37,194 nucleotides of DNA from Kosmotogales bacterium (GCA_030156385.1 JASGMR010000012.1:1-37194), one strand, 5' to 3'. Shown: positions 17,255-32,591, counted from the stretch's first letter. Translations and numbers: made by a program. The notes: generated from the letters alone by a model not told the origin.

Positions 17255-18679
17255 ATGACATTTTTCCATTGGTTTTGGATTTTCAATGCCGCAGTGGTTA
17301 TTTTGCTGGTTGTGAACGATAGAAAAAGGCCTGAAAAAACTCTCGCATGGATTTTTATTCTTCTTTTGCTACCCGTTGTGGGAATCCTCTTTTATTTTTT
17401 CCTGGGAATCGAATGGAAAAAATACAGATTATCTTCGGAAATAAAGGTCAGCAAATATCTGAAGGAACGTTATCATAATAGAGAATCCAGGCTTCCGGAA
17501 GGCAATCAGTTAGTCGATTTTTTGTATAATAGAAATGATTCCGTTCTCTTCAAAAGAAACGATGTGGAGGTTTTTTTTGATGGGGAAGAATTATTTGAGG
17601 ACATAAAAGATGAAATTAAAAAGGCCAGGCATCATATTCATATGGAATATTTTATCTGGCAGAATGATAAACTTGGCAATGAAATAAAAGATTTGTTGAT
17701 TCAGAAAGCCGGGGAAGGAATTGTAATAAGGATAATAATCGATAAAGTCGGGTCCGGGGGCATCGATAAAAAATTTGAGAATGAGATGAAAAATGCCGGA
17801 ATCGAACTGTTATTTTATTCGTATTTTTTGAGACCTTTTCTTAAAATCTTTAATCTTCAGCTCAACAACAGGGACCACAGAAAGTTAATTATAATCGATG
17901 GCAATATTGGGTATATAGGTGGATACAACATAGGCGACGAATATCTGGGAAAGGGAAAGCTCGGATACTGGCGTGATACGCATCTTAAAATAAAAGGTGA
18001 TTATGTTTACAGTTTACAGGCGGTTTTTTCGGATGATTTCTACAGAACTATGAAGGTTGAAAATATCCCGGATGCCTTTGATGGTAAATATGAAAAATAT
18101 TTTCCCGCAGTTTCGGAAAAAATGAACGGTGTTCCTTTACAGACAGCAAAAAGCGGACCGAGATCCATCAGTCCTTCGATAATGCAGGCCGTTGTGAAGC
18201 TCATCGAGTCGGCAGAGGATCATATCTATATAATAACTCCGTATTTTGTCCCGACCGAATCTGTCACGAATGCACTCATTACGGCGGCTTATTCAGGTGT
18301 TGATATCAGGATAATTTTTCCCGGAAAGCCGGATCATCCAGGTGTATACAACGCTTCGCAGACTTATTTAAATGAAGTGATAGGACATGGCATAAAAATA
18401 TATTTTTATACACCCGATGCTTTTATTCATGCAAAATCGCTCACAGTTGACGGAAAGATCGGTACCGTGGGTACCGCAAACATGGATGTTCGGAGTTACA
18501 AGTTGAATTATGAAATCAACACAGTTATTTATGATGAAAAAGTTATCAAAAAAATCGAAGATCAATTCGAAAAAGACCTGTCAAAATCAAAATTGATCAG
18601 CGATGATTATTTTAATAAACTCCCATTTTATGTGAAAATATGGCAATCTATCATGAGAATTTTCTCCGGAATGTATTAA
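17255..18679 (+). CDS. cls: Cardiolipin synthase (phospholipase D family)
   Basis: The enzyme condenses two phosphatidylglycerols into cardiolipin and glycerol at the inner membrane. The 474-residue protein has two N-terminal membrane helices (about 4-21 and 29-50), as in ClsA. It also has two HKD motifs: His208-Lys210-Asp215 in HRKLIIIDG and His392-Lys394-Asp399 in HAKSLTVDG. The start ATG follows GAGGTG. It ends the plus-strand operon. Its stop codon overlaps the stop of the convergent Hsp70-like gene, and no terminator hairpin is visible. Thermotogota membranes contain unusual lipids, so the exact substrate may differ. Confidence 0.93.
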   Translation: MTFFHWFWIFNAAVVILLVVNDRKRPEKTLAWIFILLLLPVVGILFYFFLGIEWKKYRLSSEIKVSKYLKERYHNRESRLPEGNQLVDFLYNRNDSVLFKRNDVEVFFDGEELFEDIKDEIKKARHHIHMEYFIWQNDKLGNEIKDLLIQKAGEGIVIRIIIDKVGSGGIDKKFENEMKNAGIELLFYSYFLRPFLKIFNLQLNNRDHRKLIIIDGNIGYIGGYNIGDEYLGKGKLGYWRDTHLKIKGDYVYSLQAVFSDDFYRTMKVENIPDAFDGKYEKYFPAVSEKMNGVPLQTAKSGPRSISPSIMQAVVKLIESAEDHIYIITPYFVPTESVTNALITAAYSGVDIRIIFPGKPDHPGVYNASQTYLNEVIGHGIKIYFYTPDAFIHAKSLTVDGKIGTVGTANMDVRSYKLNYEINTVIYDEKVIKKIEDQFEKDLSKSKLISDDYFNKLPFYVKIWQSIMRIFSGMY

Positions 18680-20406
18680 TTTCCTATTCCGTATTTTTTC
18701 AATTCTTTTTCCGCCTCTTCCGCCAGATATCTGTTGCCGGTATTGAGGGACCTTTCTATTTGATCTTTCAGTTTTTGTAATTGTGTTACTTCTTCATCAC
18801 TCAATTCGTTGTTGTTTATATATTTCTGGATATTGTGGATTATTTTCGTGTAATAATTCAGAAGATTGTTTTTCATCCACATATCTTCTATTCTCTCAAT
18901 GGCGATTTTCTTTTCTTCCTCACTCATAGAAATCTCGCTGTCATTGAATTTTATATCCAGTTTCTGGTTGGTCGTGGGAATGTAAGCGGATAGTTTTATC
19001 ATCCCATTGTTGTCGTAAATAAAGTTTATTTTAAAGGGGTGAGGCTCGCCTGTTTTTGAGGTCGGTATAGATTTTATCTTTCCCATTATTCCGGTGTCGA
19101 TCACATTGCTTAAAAGTTGTGAACCACTGTAGTGGGACTGTAAAACCTTTATTTCAACATTTTTCTGATCTGAGGTTATCAGATTGTATGTTTTACTGAC
19201 CGAGTATGGAAGGGAAGTGTTAGGCTCAATGAGTGGATCGTAAAAAGCCATTATCTGTCTCCCCATTGATTCCAAAACCGGAACTCCCAACCCATAAGGG
19301 GAAACATCTTTTATATTTATGGCCTCATTTTTATTTATCAGTCCCTTTATATATGCTGCCTGTAGAGATGCACCTATGGAAACCGCCAGATCGGGGTCAA
19401 CATCAAAACTCACTTTGTTGTGAAAAACGCTGTCCAGCATTTCTCTGACATACGGAATATAGGAAGTACCACCAATTGCGAGCACTTTGTTTATTTTTTC
19501 AACTCTTATCGCTTTGGTTGCGAGTGCTTCAACAACGACATCTTTCGCCTCAAGAACGAGGGGTTTGATTATCTTCTGGAATTCTTCACGGGTTATTATC
19601 GTGTCCAGATCTATATCTTCTCCCGCTTTATTGATTGCGTATGAAGGTACATAAATTTCTATTTCTTCCTGAGAGGAAAGGATTTCCTTGCCTCTTTTTA
19701 CCTCCTGCTTTAATGCTGCGGATGCTATGACGGTACATTCGCCATTCAGCCTTATGAATTCATCGTGCAATTTCTGTGCGAACAGATCGTCAATATCCTT
19801 ACCACCAAGATTCGGATTTCCGAAACTCGCTATGACGTTCATCTGATTGTCAATCATTTCGAGAATAGAAACATCCAGAGTACCACCACCCCAGTCGAAA
19901 ATCAGCAGATCTTCGGTAGTATTGAACTTTTTTATTCCATAAGCCAGGGCAGCGGCGGTTGGCTCGTTTATGAGCCTCAGCACTTTTATTCCGGCCAATT
20001 CTGCGGCAAGGAGAGTCGCTTTCCTTGCAGGTTCCGGAAAATTTGCCGGAACGGTGATGACCGCCTCATCTATCTTTGTACTGTATACCGATTCAACCAG
20101 TTCCTTGATTTTTTTCAGGATGATGGCACTTATTTCCTCCGGTTTGAAATCTCTGTCCCCCAATTTTATCGTTTCTTTTTTCCCCATGGATCTTTTAACT
20201 TCCTGACAGAATCTCTTTTTTGAACCAACGTATCTCAGGGCCTGATCGCCGACCACTATTCTGTTCTTTTTATCTATAGCCACCACCGAAGGTATTATGG
20301 GACTTCTGGCTATAGGGTCTCTGAGAGTGTTGGTTTCATTGTTTATGTATACGGTTACTTCCGATGTGGAAGTTCCCAGGTCAATTCCAACTGCTATGTT
20401 ATTCAT
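18676..20406 (-). CDS. Divergent Hsp70 (DnaK-like) chaperone
   Basis: The 576-residue protein has a full Hsp70 ATPase domain. Phosphate-1 is GIDLGTSTSEVTVY (7-20), phosphate-2 is IFDWGGGTLDVS (169-180), LINEPTAAALAYG spans 145-157 and the adenosine loop is AIGGTSYIP (310-318). A DnaK-like beta substrate domain follows (DVSPYGLGV, 367-375), then a short helical lid. There are clear departures from DnaK. The conserved DTHLGG segment with the catalytic-site threonine reads NPNLGG (197-202). The hydrophobic VLLL interdomain linker reads INIK. The lid is short and lacks the usual disordered tail. It starts 17 bases after a membrane-anchored GrpE-like gene behind GGAGGACC. It is probably a paralogue, with the housekeeping dnaK elsewhere. 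Confidence 0.88.
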   Translation of the reverse strand: MNNIAVGIDLGTSTSEVTVYINNETNTLRDPIARSPIIPSVVAIDKKNRIVVGDQALRYVGSKKRFCQEVKRSMGKKETIKLGDRDFKPEEISAIILKKIKELVESVYSTKIDEAVITVPANFPEPARKATLLAAELAGIKVLRLINEPTAAALAYGIKKFNTTEDLLIFDWGGGTLDVSILEMIDNQMNVIASFGNPNLGGKDIDDLFAQKLHDEFIRLNGECTVIASAALKQEVKRGKEILSSQEEIEIYVPSYAINKAGEDIDLDTIITREEFQKIIKPLVLEAKDVVVEALATKAIRVEKINKVLAIGGTSYIPYVREMLDSVFHNKVSFDVDPDLAVSIGASLQAAYIKGLINKNEAINIKDVSPYGLGVPVLESMGRQIMAFYDPLIEPNTSLPYSVSKTYNLITSDQKNVEIKVLQSHYSGSQLLSNVIDTGIMGKIKSIPTSKTGEPHPFKINFIYDNNGMIKLSAYIPTTNQKLDIKFNDSEISMSEEEKKIAIERIEDMWMKNNLLNYYTKIIHNIQKYINNNELSDEEVTQLQKLKDQIERSLNTGNRYLAEEAEKELKKYGIGN

Positions 20407-20423
20407 TTTTGGTCCTCCTGTTT

Positions 20424-21164
20424 CTAATCTTTTTTTGACACAACAACTGATGCCGGTTTTAAGACGTCGTCCATGAATCTGTATCCAGGTGTTATAACTT
20501 CAACAACCACACCTTCCGTTTCTCCTTTGACTTCATCAGCCACACTACTGGTTACAGGATCAAAAATATCCCCAATTTCGGGTAATAATATGTAAAAACC
20601 TGCCCCCGATAACCTTCTTGAGAGAATTTTCATTATTTTAATATATATCGATTTTTTTTCAGATGTCGTATTAACAGAAATCCTGTAAACATCATCAAAA
20701 GCATGTTGTATCTCATCTATTAGATCTTCCATTATTTTATTGTTTCGTATGTTTTCTTCATTACTCTTTTTTAACATTTCATCGTTCAGAAAATTACCTT
20801 TGTTAAAAATTTTCGCGAGCATTTTTCTGTTACTATCAAGAATTTTAGCCAGATCATCGGCAAAAACATCAATTCTATCGAAAGAATTATTTTTTAACAT
20901 GACGGGAATGGAATCAAATTTCTCACTCAATTTAACAAGTTCATTTGCCACTTCATTTTTCCTTGAAAGAGAGAGAACATTGAATATGTATAAAAAAATT
21001 CCAAAAGCAAAAATTATTGCTCCCGAAGAGATAACGAGTAGTTCTTTATCAAAACTGAATTTTTCAGAAAAAATAATCATGAATAAAGAAATTATTATTA
21101 TCGCCAGTCCCAGATATATCAATAATTCAGATAAAATTTTACTTCTTTTTTCACCCTTTGACAT
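20424..21164 (-). CDS. Membrane-anchored GrpE-like nucleotide exchange factor
   Basis: The start is ATG 21164 behind a GGAGG site; an earlier in-frame start at 21221 has none. That gives 246 residues. Two membrane helices (about 12-32 and 42-64) form an N-terminal hairpin, followed by a long helical or coiled-coil region (65-180). The last 60 residues look like the GrpE beta-wing. IGDIFDPV, then EGVVVEVITPGYRF and VLKPASVVVSKK (about 197-245), align by eye with the GrpE pattern GxxFDP...GxVxxVxxxGY...VLRPAxVxVxK. Both termini should lie in the cytosol. The partner Hsp70 is 17 bases downstream, so this is inferred to be its dedicated, membrane-tethered exchange factor. Ordinary GrpE has no membrane segment. 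Confidence 0.75.
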   Translation of the reverse strand: MSKGEKRSKILSELLIYLGLAIIIISLFMIIFSEKFSFDKELLVISSGAIIFAFGIFLYIFNVLSLSRKNEVANELVKLSEKFDSIPVMLKNNSFDRIDVFADDLAKILDSNRKMLAKIFNKGNFLNDEMLKKSNEENIRNNKIMEDLIDEIQHAFDDVYRISVNTTSEKKSIYIKIMKILSRRLSGAGFYILLPEIGDIFDPVTSSVADEVKGETEGVVVEVITPGYRFMDDVLKPASVVVSKKD

Positions 21165-21255
21165 AATATTCCTCCAAACGATAGATACAAATATTATAAT
21201 ACTCTTAGTTAAAGATATCATAAACGCTTAATTTTTTTAATATTGAGGTTGAAAT

Positions 21256-32564: not shown

Positions 32565-32591
32565 TTAGCAGACTCAATAAAAGAGTGCTAA
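32565..32591 (+). promoter_or_regulatory. CIRCE element (HrcA operator)
   Basis: TTAGCAGAC-N9-GAGTGCTAA matches the CIRCE consensus TTAGCACTC-N9-GAGTGCTAA. The right arm is perfect and the left arm has two mismatches. The spacing is exactly nine. HrcA repression of groESL, relieved by heat or unfolded protein, is therefore expected. hrcA is not in the window. Confidence 0.88.

Follow-up and report, generated by a model that had tools for sequence, protein, structure and literature searches.

A predicted membrane-anchored GrpE-like protein paired with a divergent Hsp70 in Kosmotogaceae

Where in the cell does nucleotide exchange on Hsp70 take place? In eukaryotes, exchange factors are known that act locally. 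Bacteria, according to a review, have one Hsp70 exchange factor, the soluble GrpE (PMC4753570), and because the E. coli protein is evenly distributed in the cell, localised exchange has been held refuted for GrpE (PMC8215388). The yeast protein Snl1 was, as stated in 2014, the sole known membrane-associated Hsp70 exchange factor (PMC3962485). Many plasmids carry a second dnaK-grpE cassette, and in Nostoc a divergent Hsp70 comes with a GrpE and a J-protein of its own; thus, the rule of one exchange factor per bacterium (PMC4753570) is already too simple. Since second soluble GrpE-Hsp70 cassettes are common, the new element in the locus described here is the predicted membrane anchor. None of the separate second GrpEs that we checked has a clear membrane helix, the sole hydrophobic stretch lying in the Hsp70 part of a Halocatena fusion protein, and we found no description of a membrane-bound GrpE among open-licence papers, which leaves its absence from the literature unproven.

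The window, a stretch of 37,194 nucleotides (GCA_030156385.1 JASGMR010000012.1:1-37194), belongs to a 2.3-Mb, 91%-complete Kosmotogaceae MAG, which bears out the original placement in the phylum Thermotogota. We propose, with a probability of about 0.6 and on the strength of sequence comparison, that two of its genes encode a dedicated membrane-anchored GrpE-type exchange factor, which would double as a dock, and the Hsp70 that it serves. Both open reading frames lie where they were first placed, each behind a Shine-Dalgarno-type GGAGG or AGGAGG, and the layout of the unit is as follows.

21193..21221, minus strand: putative sigma-70-like promoter, ATGATA-17-TATAAT (10/12 positions matched; weak evidence)
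21171-21175, minus strand: GGAGG, 7 bases before the grpE-like ATG (21164)
20424..21164, minus strand: gene for the putative membrane GrpE-like protein, 246 aa (ORF; Pfam GrpE, 40.2 bits)
21069..21125, minus strand: predicted transmembrane helix 1, residues 14-32 (mean Kyte-Doolittle 3.02)
20985..21041, minus strand: predicted transmembrane helix 2, residues 42-60 (mean Kyte-Doolittle 2.44)
20433..20849, minus strand: GrpE domain, residues 106-244, with lower stalk, helix bundle and beta-wing (PF01025 profile positions 28-165 and alignment with canonical GrpEs)
20414-20419, minus strand: AGGAGG, 7 bases before the hsp70 start
18676..20406, minus strand: divergent Hsp70 gene, downstream member of the two-gene unit, 576 aa (ORF; PF00012, E=2.9e-93)
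19801..19818, minus strand: NPNLGG, residues 197-202 (E. coli DnaK: DTHLGG; sequence)
19306..19320, minus strand: interdomain linker INIKD, residues 363-367 (E. coli DnaK: VLLLD; alignment)

The two genes are separated by 17 bases. In the window, hsp70 runs convergently, tail to tail, with cls, and the grpE-like gene is divergent from a radical-SAM gene. The region holds 13 sigma-70-like sites of the quality of the putative promoter, against 9.7 expected by chance.

What identifies the upstream product as a GrpE? The reading first made from its C-terminal motifs is sustained by profile search: the match to PF01025 (Pfam) covers residues 106-244 and exceeds the cut-off of 25.8 bits (E=3.6e-10), all three members of the family pass the same cut-off, and the family profile matches solved GrpE structures (3a6m, E=1.9e-5). 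A chance resemblance is ruled out by the Pfam score together with the matches of all three members. Alignment with nine other GrpEs (canonical Thermotogota proteins and that of E. coli) spans the stalk, the DDLxRx bundle helix and the beta-wing, and the window protein contains both the beta-wing core with its GY and the C-terminal PAxVxV strand (VVVEVITPGYRF...VLKPASVVVS). The protein falls below every NCBIfam GrpE equivalog cut-off, the best score being 25.9 bits against 164 ('nucleotide exchange factor GrpE'), and hhalign of the family against E. coli GrpE alone returns a probability of 7.9, a weak value because both sides are nearly without diversity. AlphaFold2 models, each built on three sequences, reach a pLDDT of 44 for this protein and 60 for the Hsp70, too low to lend structural support.

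Two N-terminal hydrophobic helices had been predicted, and hydropathy locates them at residues 14-32 and 42-60. A strong pair of such helices is present in all three members, whereas canonical Thermotogota GrpEs reach at most 1.56 on the same scale. The N-termini of the three proteins are basic (4, 2 and 4 Lys or Arg residues) and the loop between the helices has no net positive charge; both ends of the hairpin are thus predicted to be cytosolic, on the same side as the Hsp70. Hydropathy therefore gives good reason to regard the GrpE-like protein as anchored in the membrane.

The downstream gene was described at the outset as a divergent Hsp70, and so it is: the PF00012 match covers the ATPase domain and SBD-beta, while the NCBIfam DnaK equivalog is far out of reach (308 bits against a cut-off of 822.55). 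We are confident of the homology of both proteins and of their pairing. The N-terminus of the Hsp70 is free of hydrophobic segments. Its lid is short, and the lid is absent in the orthologues (510-513 aa). Loop L1,2 of the substrate-binding domain carries a 7-aa insertion, as in HscC (4-8 aa insertion). By alignment, the protein keeps the equivalents of the catalytic residues K70, E171, D194 and T199 of DnaK and of R167 and D393, which contact the J-domain. The letters INIK and NPNLGG, to which the original prediction drew attention, are confirmed by the alignment, but they form no conserved signature, the orthologues reading VITS and DLFLGG. The linker is VILT in E. coli HscC and VLV in the same organism's own DnaK. 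Judged by these alignments, the letters are lineage divergence.

Would this Hsp70 need an exchange factor? Two features of its ATPase domain point in opposite directions. The GrpE-signature loop (E. coli 290-295), which is deleted in HscA and HscC, is retained in length in all three members and argues for a GrpE-type partner; the latch salt bridges K55-E267 and R56-E264 are both gone (position 55 is Leu, 56 Arg or Lys, 264 Gln or Lys and 267 Lys or Arg), which argues for fast, factor-free exit of ADP (loop and salt-bridge criteria from PMC8215388). In HscA, loss of the latch salt bridges accompanies 700-fold faster ADP release (PMC8215388). Exchange may thus need no factor here, and the GrpE-like protein could be a membrane dock that holds and orients an Hsp70 which, like HscA, sheds ADP unaided. 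That account also draws on the FDP loop of the GrpE-like protein, preserved in the window protein but changed to PDM in both orthologues. It has to contend with the retained signature loop and with the beta-wing core, V-V-E-V-x-x-P-G-Y-R, whose VVEVxxPGYR stretch is the best kept among the three members. Since the loop and latch evidence conflict, we keep docking without exchange as an unlikely but serious contender. Our preferred reading, a dock that is also an exchange factor, would have the beta-wing still entering the ATPase cleft, for which conservation of its core is expected. The degraded FDP loop of the two orthologues counts against exchange, as do the fast evolution and rarity of the pair; the sequences permit moderate confidence that the GrpE-like protein would promote nucleotide exchange on its paired Hsp70.

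The three Hsp70s stand apart in the tree as a long clade of their own, outside that of DnaK (100/100). A recent duplication of the Kosmotogaceae DnaK is rejected as their origin (AU p=0.002). Grouping with HscC gave p=0.43, so that a common clade is neither supported nor rejected; grouping with chemosensory Hsp70s was not rejected (p=0.15), and grouping with all Thermotogota DnaKs was borderline (p=0.055). Long branches limit both the tree and these AU outcomes. The chemosensory proteins are lidless Hsp70s of about 470-500 aa that form a clade of their own in the tree. They occur in several Thermotogota families (L101 6403-13674, L102, L103, L104), in operons that encode a ParA-like ATPase, a small TPR protein, the Hsp70, a HEAT-repeat or MCP-like protein, CheR, a CheY-like protein and CheA.

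The source genome also holds a separate canonical dnaK and grpE, for which the original prediction had proposed a survey: grpE lies on contig C126 within a CIRCE-hrcA-grpE-dnaJ cluster, and dnaK on contig C135, followed by hsp20 and clpB genes. The copy on C126 rules out the membrane GrpE-like gene as the genome's sole grpE. The CIRCE-hrcA-grpE-dnaJ cluster is found in all three pair-bearing genomes. No CIRCE was found at the GrpE-like/Hsp70 pair, which by that criterion lies outside the HrcA heat-shock set; elsewhere in the window, a CIRCE with two mismatches lies 5' of groESL at 32565-32591 (chance expectation 0.01). As first noted, no J-domain gene stands beside the pair in the window, and the one J-domain protein of the source genome is that of the hrcA-grpE-dnaJ cluster. 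Could the GrpE-like protein also, or mainly, recruit the general DnaK to the membrane, the divergent Hsp70 being a co-regulated relative? One GrpE fold broadly resembles another, and this protein still scores above the GrpE cut-off, but it strictly co-occurs with, and adjoins, the divergent Hsp70 only, in genomes that have a canonical grpE, and two members have lost the intact FDP loop. We consider this role improbable.

Both genes are found in three of 103 Thermotogota genomes, and no genome has only one of them. The two further occurrences, L037 (8605-10864) and L038 (6938-9209), are in MAGs of a second genus. The adjacency anticipated for relatives is therefore conserved: the same two genes stand in the same order in two genera amid unrelated flanks, tpi/pgk/gap in L037 and L038 and cls/radical-SAM in the window. 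Among the 103 genomes, second-locus GrpE matches above the cut-off are confined to these three plus a frame-broken one (G035) and a marginal one (G039), and close relatives of the divergent Hsp70 to the three alone. No orthologues of the pair were found in viral contigs or plasmids. A GTDB-wide scan with two degenerate narrow patterns, which distant membrane GrpEs of other phyla may escape, returned only the two known relatives. In L037 (7531-8475) and L038 (9339-10280) the gene divergent from the pair encodes a protein of 314 aa that has a single N-terminal membrane helix and matches nothing in Pfam; in the window genome it does not adjoin the pair.

The GrpE-like proteins of the two genera are 25-27% identical and the Hsp70s 45%, compared with 39-41% for canonical GrpE and 73% for canonical DnaK. 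So rare and fast-evolving a pair might be a relict, an ordinary second dnaK-grpE cassette of the kind common, for example, on plasmids, which acquired a hairpin and now drifts, without any particular function at the membrane. Several observations make this very improbable. Neither reading frame is interrupted in any of the three genomes, and despite the low identity just given the two genera have both retained the hairpin and the GrpE core. For the two MAGs closest to each other, dN of the pair is 0.26 and 0.16 and dS is beyond estimation; saturation is the simplest reading of this, and it would imply purifying selection on the pair.

How might a dedicated, membrane-anchored exchange factor work? 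From these comparisons we infer membrane insertion, topology, dimerization, binding, exchange, the J-protein partner and the orientation of the pair, as follows. The hairpin of two membrane helices, with both ends cytosolic, would replace the usual soluble N-terminal tail of GrpE, and the second gene would supply a cytosolic divergent Hsp70. The J-contact residues being retained, the single DnaJ of the cell would trigger ATP hydrolysis. A GrpE-like dimer, standing on the membrane by its stalk, would bind ADP-bound Hsp70 carrying a client; its beta-wing would wedge into the ATPase cleft, so that ADP and then the client would leave at the membrane. The disordered N-terminal tail of ordinary GrpE contacts the Hsp70 substrate domain (PMC12915176; PMC8215388), and the end of the GrpE stalk normally adjoins that domain; the client-binding side of the Hsp70 would accordingly face the membrane. 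An Hsp70 cycle fixed to the membrane by its GrpE-like protein, as originally envisaged, is compatible with this scheme. We give even odds to the further idea that exchange is spatially restricted, clients of this one Hsp70 being freed solely at the membrane, apart from the heat-shock DnaK system. Neither the neighbourhood nor the sequence lends backing to the suggestion of membrane or secreted clients.

Other Hsp70 and GrpE architectures were met along the way. On a Halocatena marina plasmid (NZ_CP109982.1; L135 839-2815), an Hsp70 ATPase domain and SBD-beta are followed by a GrpE domain in the place of the lid (HSP70 7.8e-99, GrpE 2.2e-20), in a protein annotated as GrpE only. H. salina has the fusion as well, and Halomicrobium plasmids carry related matches annotated 'grpE'; the Halocatena fusions show that such pairs occur as natural units. 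A Halomonas plasmid (NZ_CP040453.1; L136 1775-2875) encodes a DnaJ C-terminal domain, with no Pfam J-domain match, fused to GrpE. Finally, three Thermotogota genomes (L107 4097-9207, L108 6223-10762, L111) combine a metallo-beta-lactamase-fold protein, a weakly GrpE-like protein and an Hsp70-like protein of 880-900 aa. The GrpE-like region scores 20.5 bits in L107, below the Pfam cut-off, and has no match in L108; these operons perhaps encode another dedicated Hsp70-GrpE-like pair.

How, then, does the pair compare with known systems? It shares with bacterial GrpE (PF01025; E. coli, 1DKG) the stalk, with its LDDLxRA-type bundle helix, and the beta-wing VxEVxxxGYxxxxxVLxPAxVxV; it differs in that two predicted membrane helices replace the disordered tail and in that the partner is a non-DnaK Hsp70. 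E. coli HscC, which works with the J-proteins DjlB and DjlC, is likewise a short divergent Hsp70 (550-580 aa) with an L1,2 insertion, a divergent linker (VILT) and lost latches, but its GrpE-signature loop is deleted and no use of GrpE is expected of it, whereas the partner here is of GrpE type. The plasmid dnaK-grpE-J-clpB cassettes of Rhodococcus and Arthrobacter and the TPR-J-GrpE-Hsp70-TPR cluster of Nostoc also equip a second Hsp70 with its own GrpE; in these, however, GrpE has no membrane helix, a J-protein is adjacent and the order is often dnaK-grpE. The mitochondrial import motor is similar in that its Hsp70 cycle is tied to a membrane, but there the docks are Tim44 and the J-protein Pam18, and the GrpE, Mge1/GrpEL1, is soluble. 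A membrane GrpE beside its own Hsp70 would make localised exchange testable in bacteria: is the client released where the exchange factor sits? Snl1 of the yeast ER, a membrane-anchored exchange factor serving cytosolic Hsp70, is alike in arrangement and unlike in being eukaryotic and in having an unrelated BAG fold and one N-terminal transmembrane region; a membrane GrpE would be its GrpE-fold counterpart.
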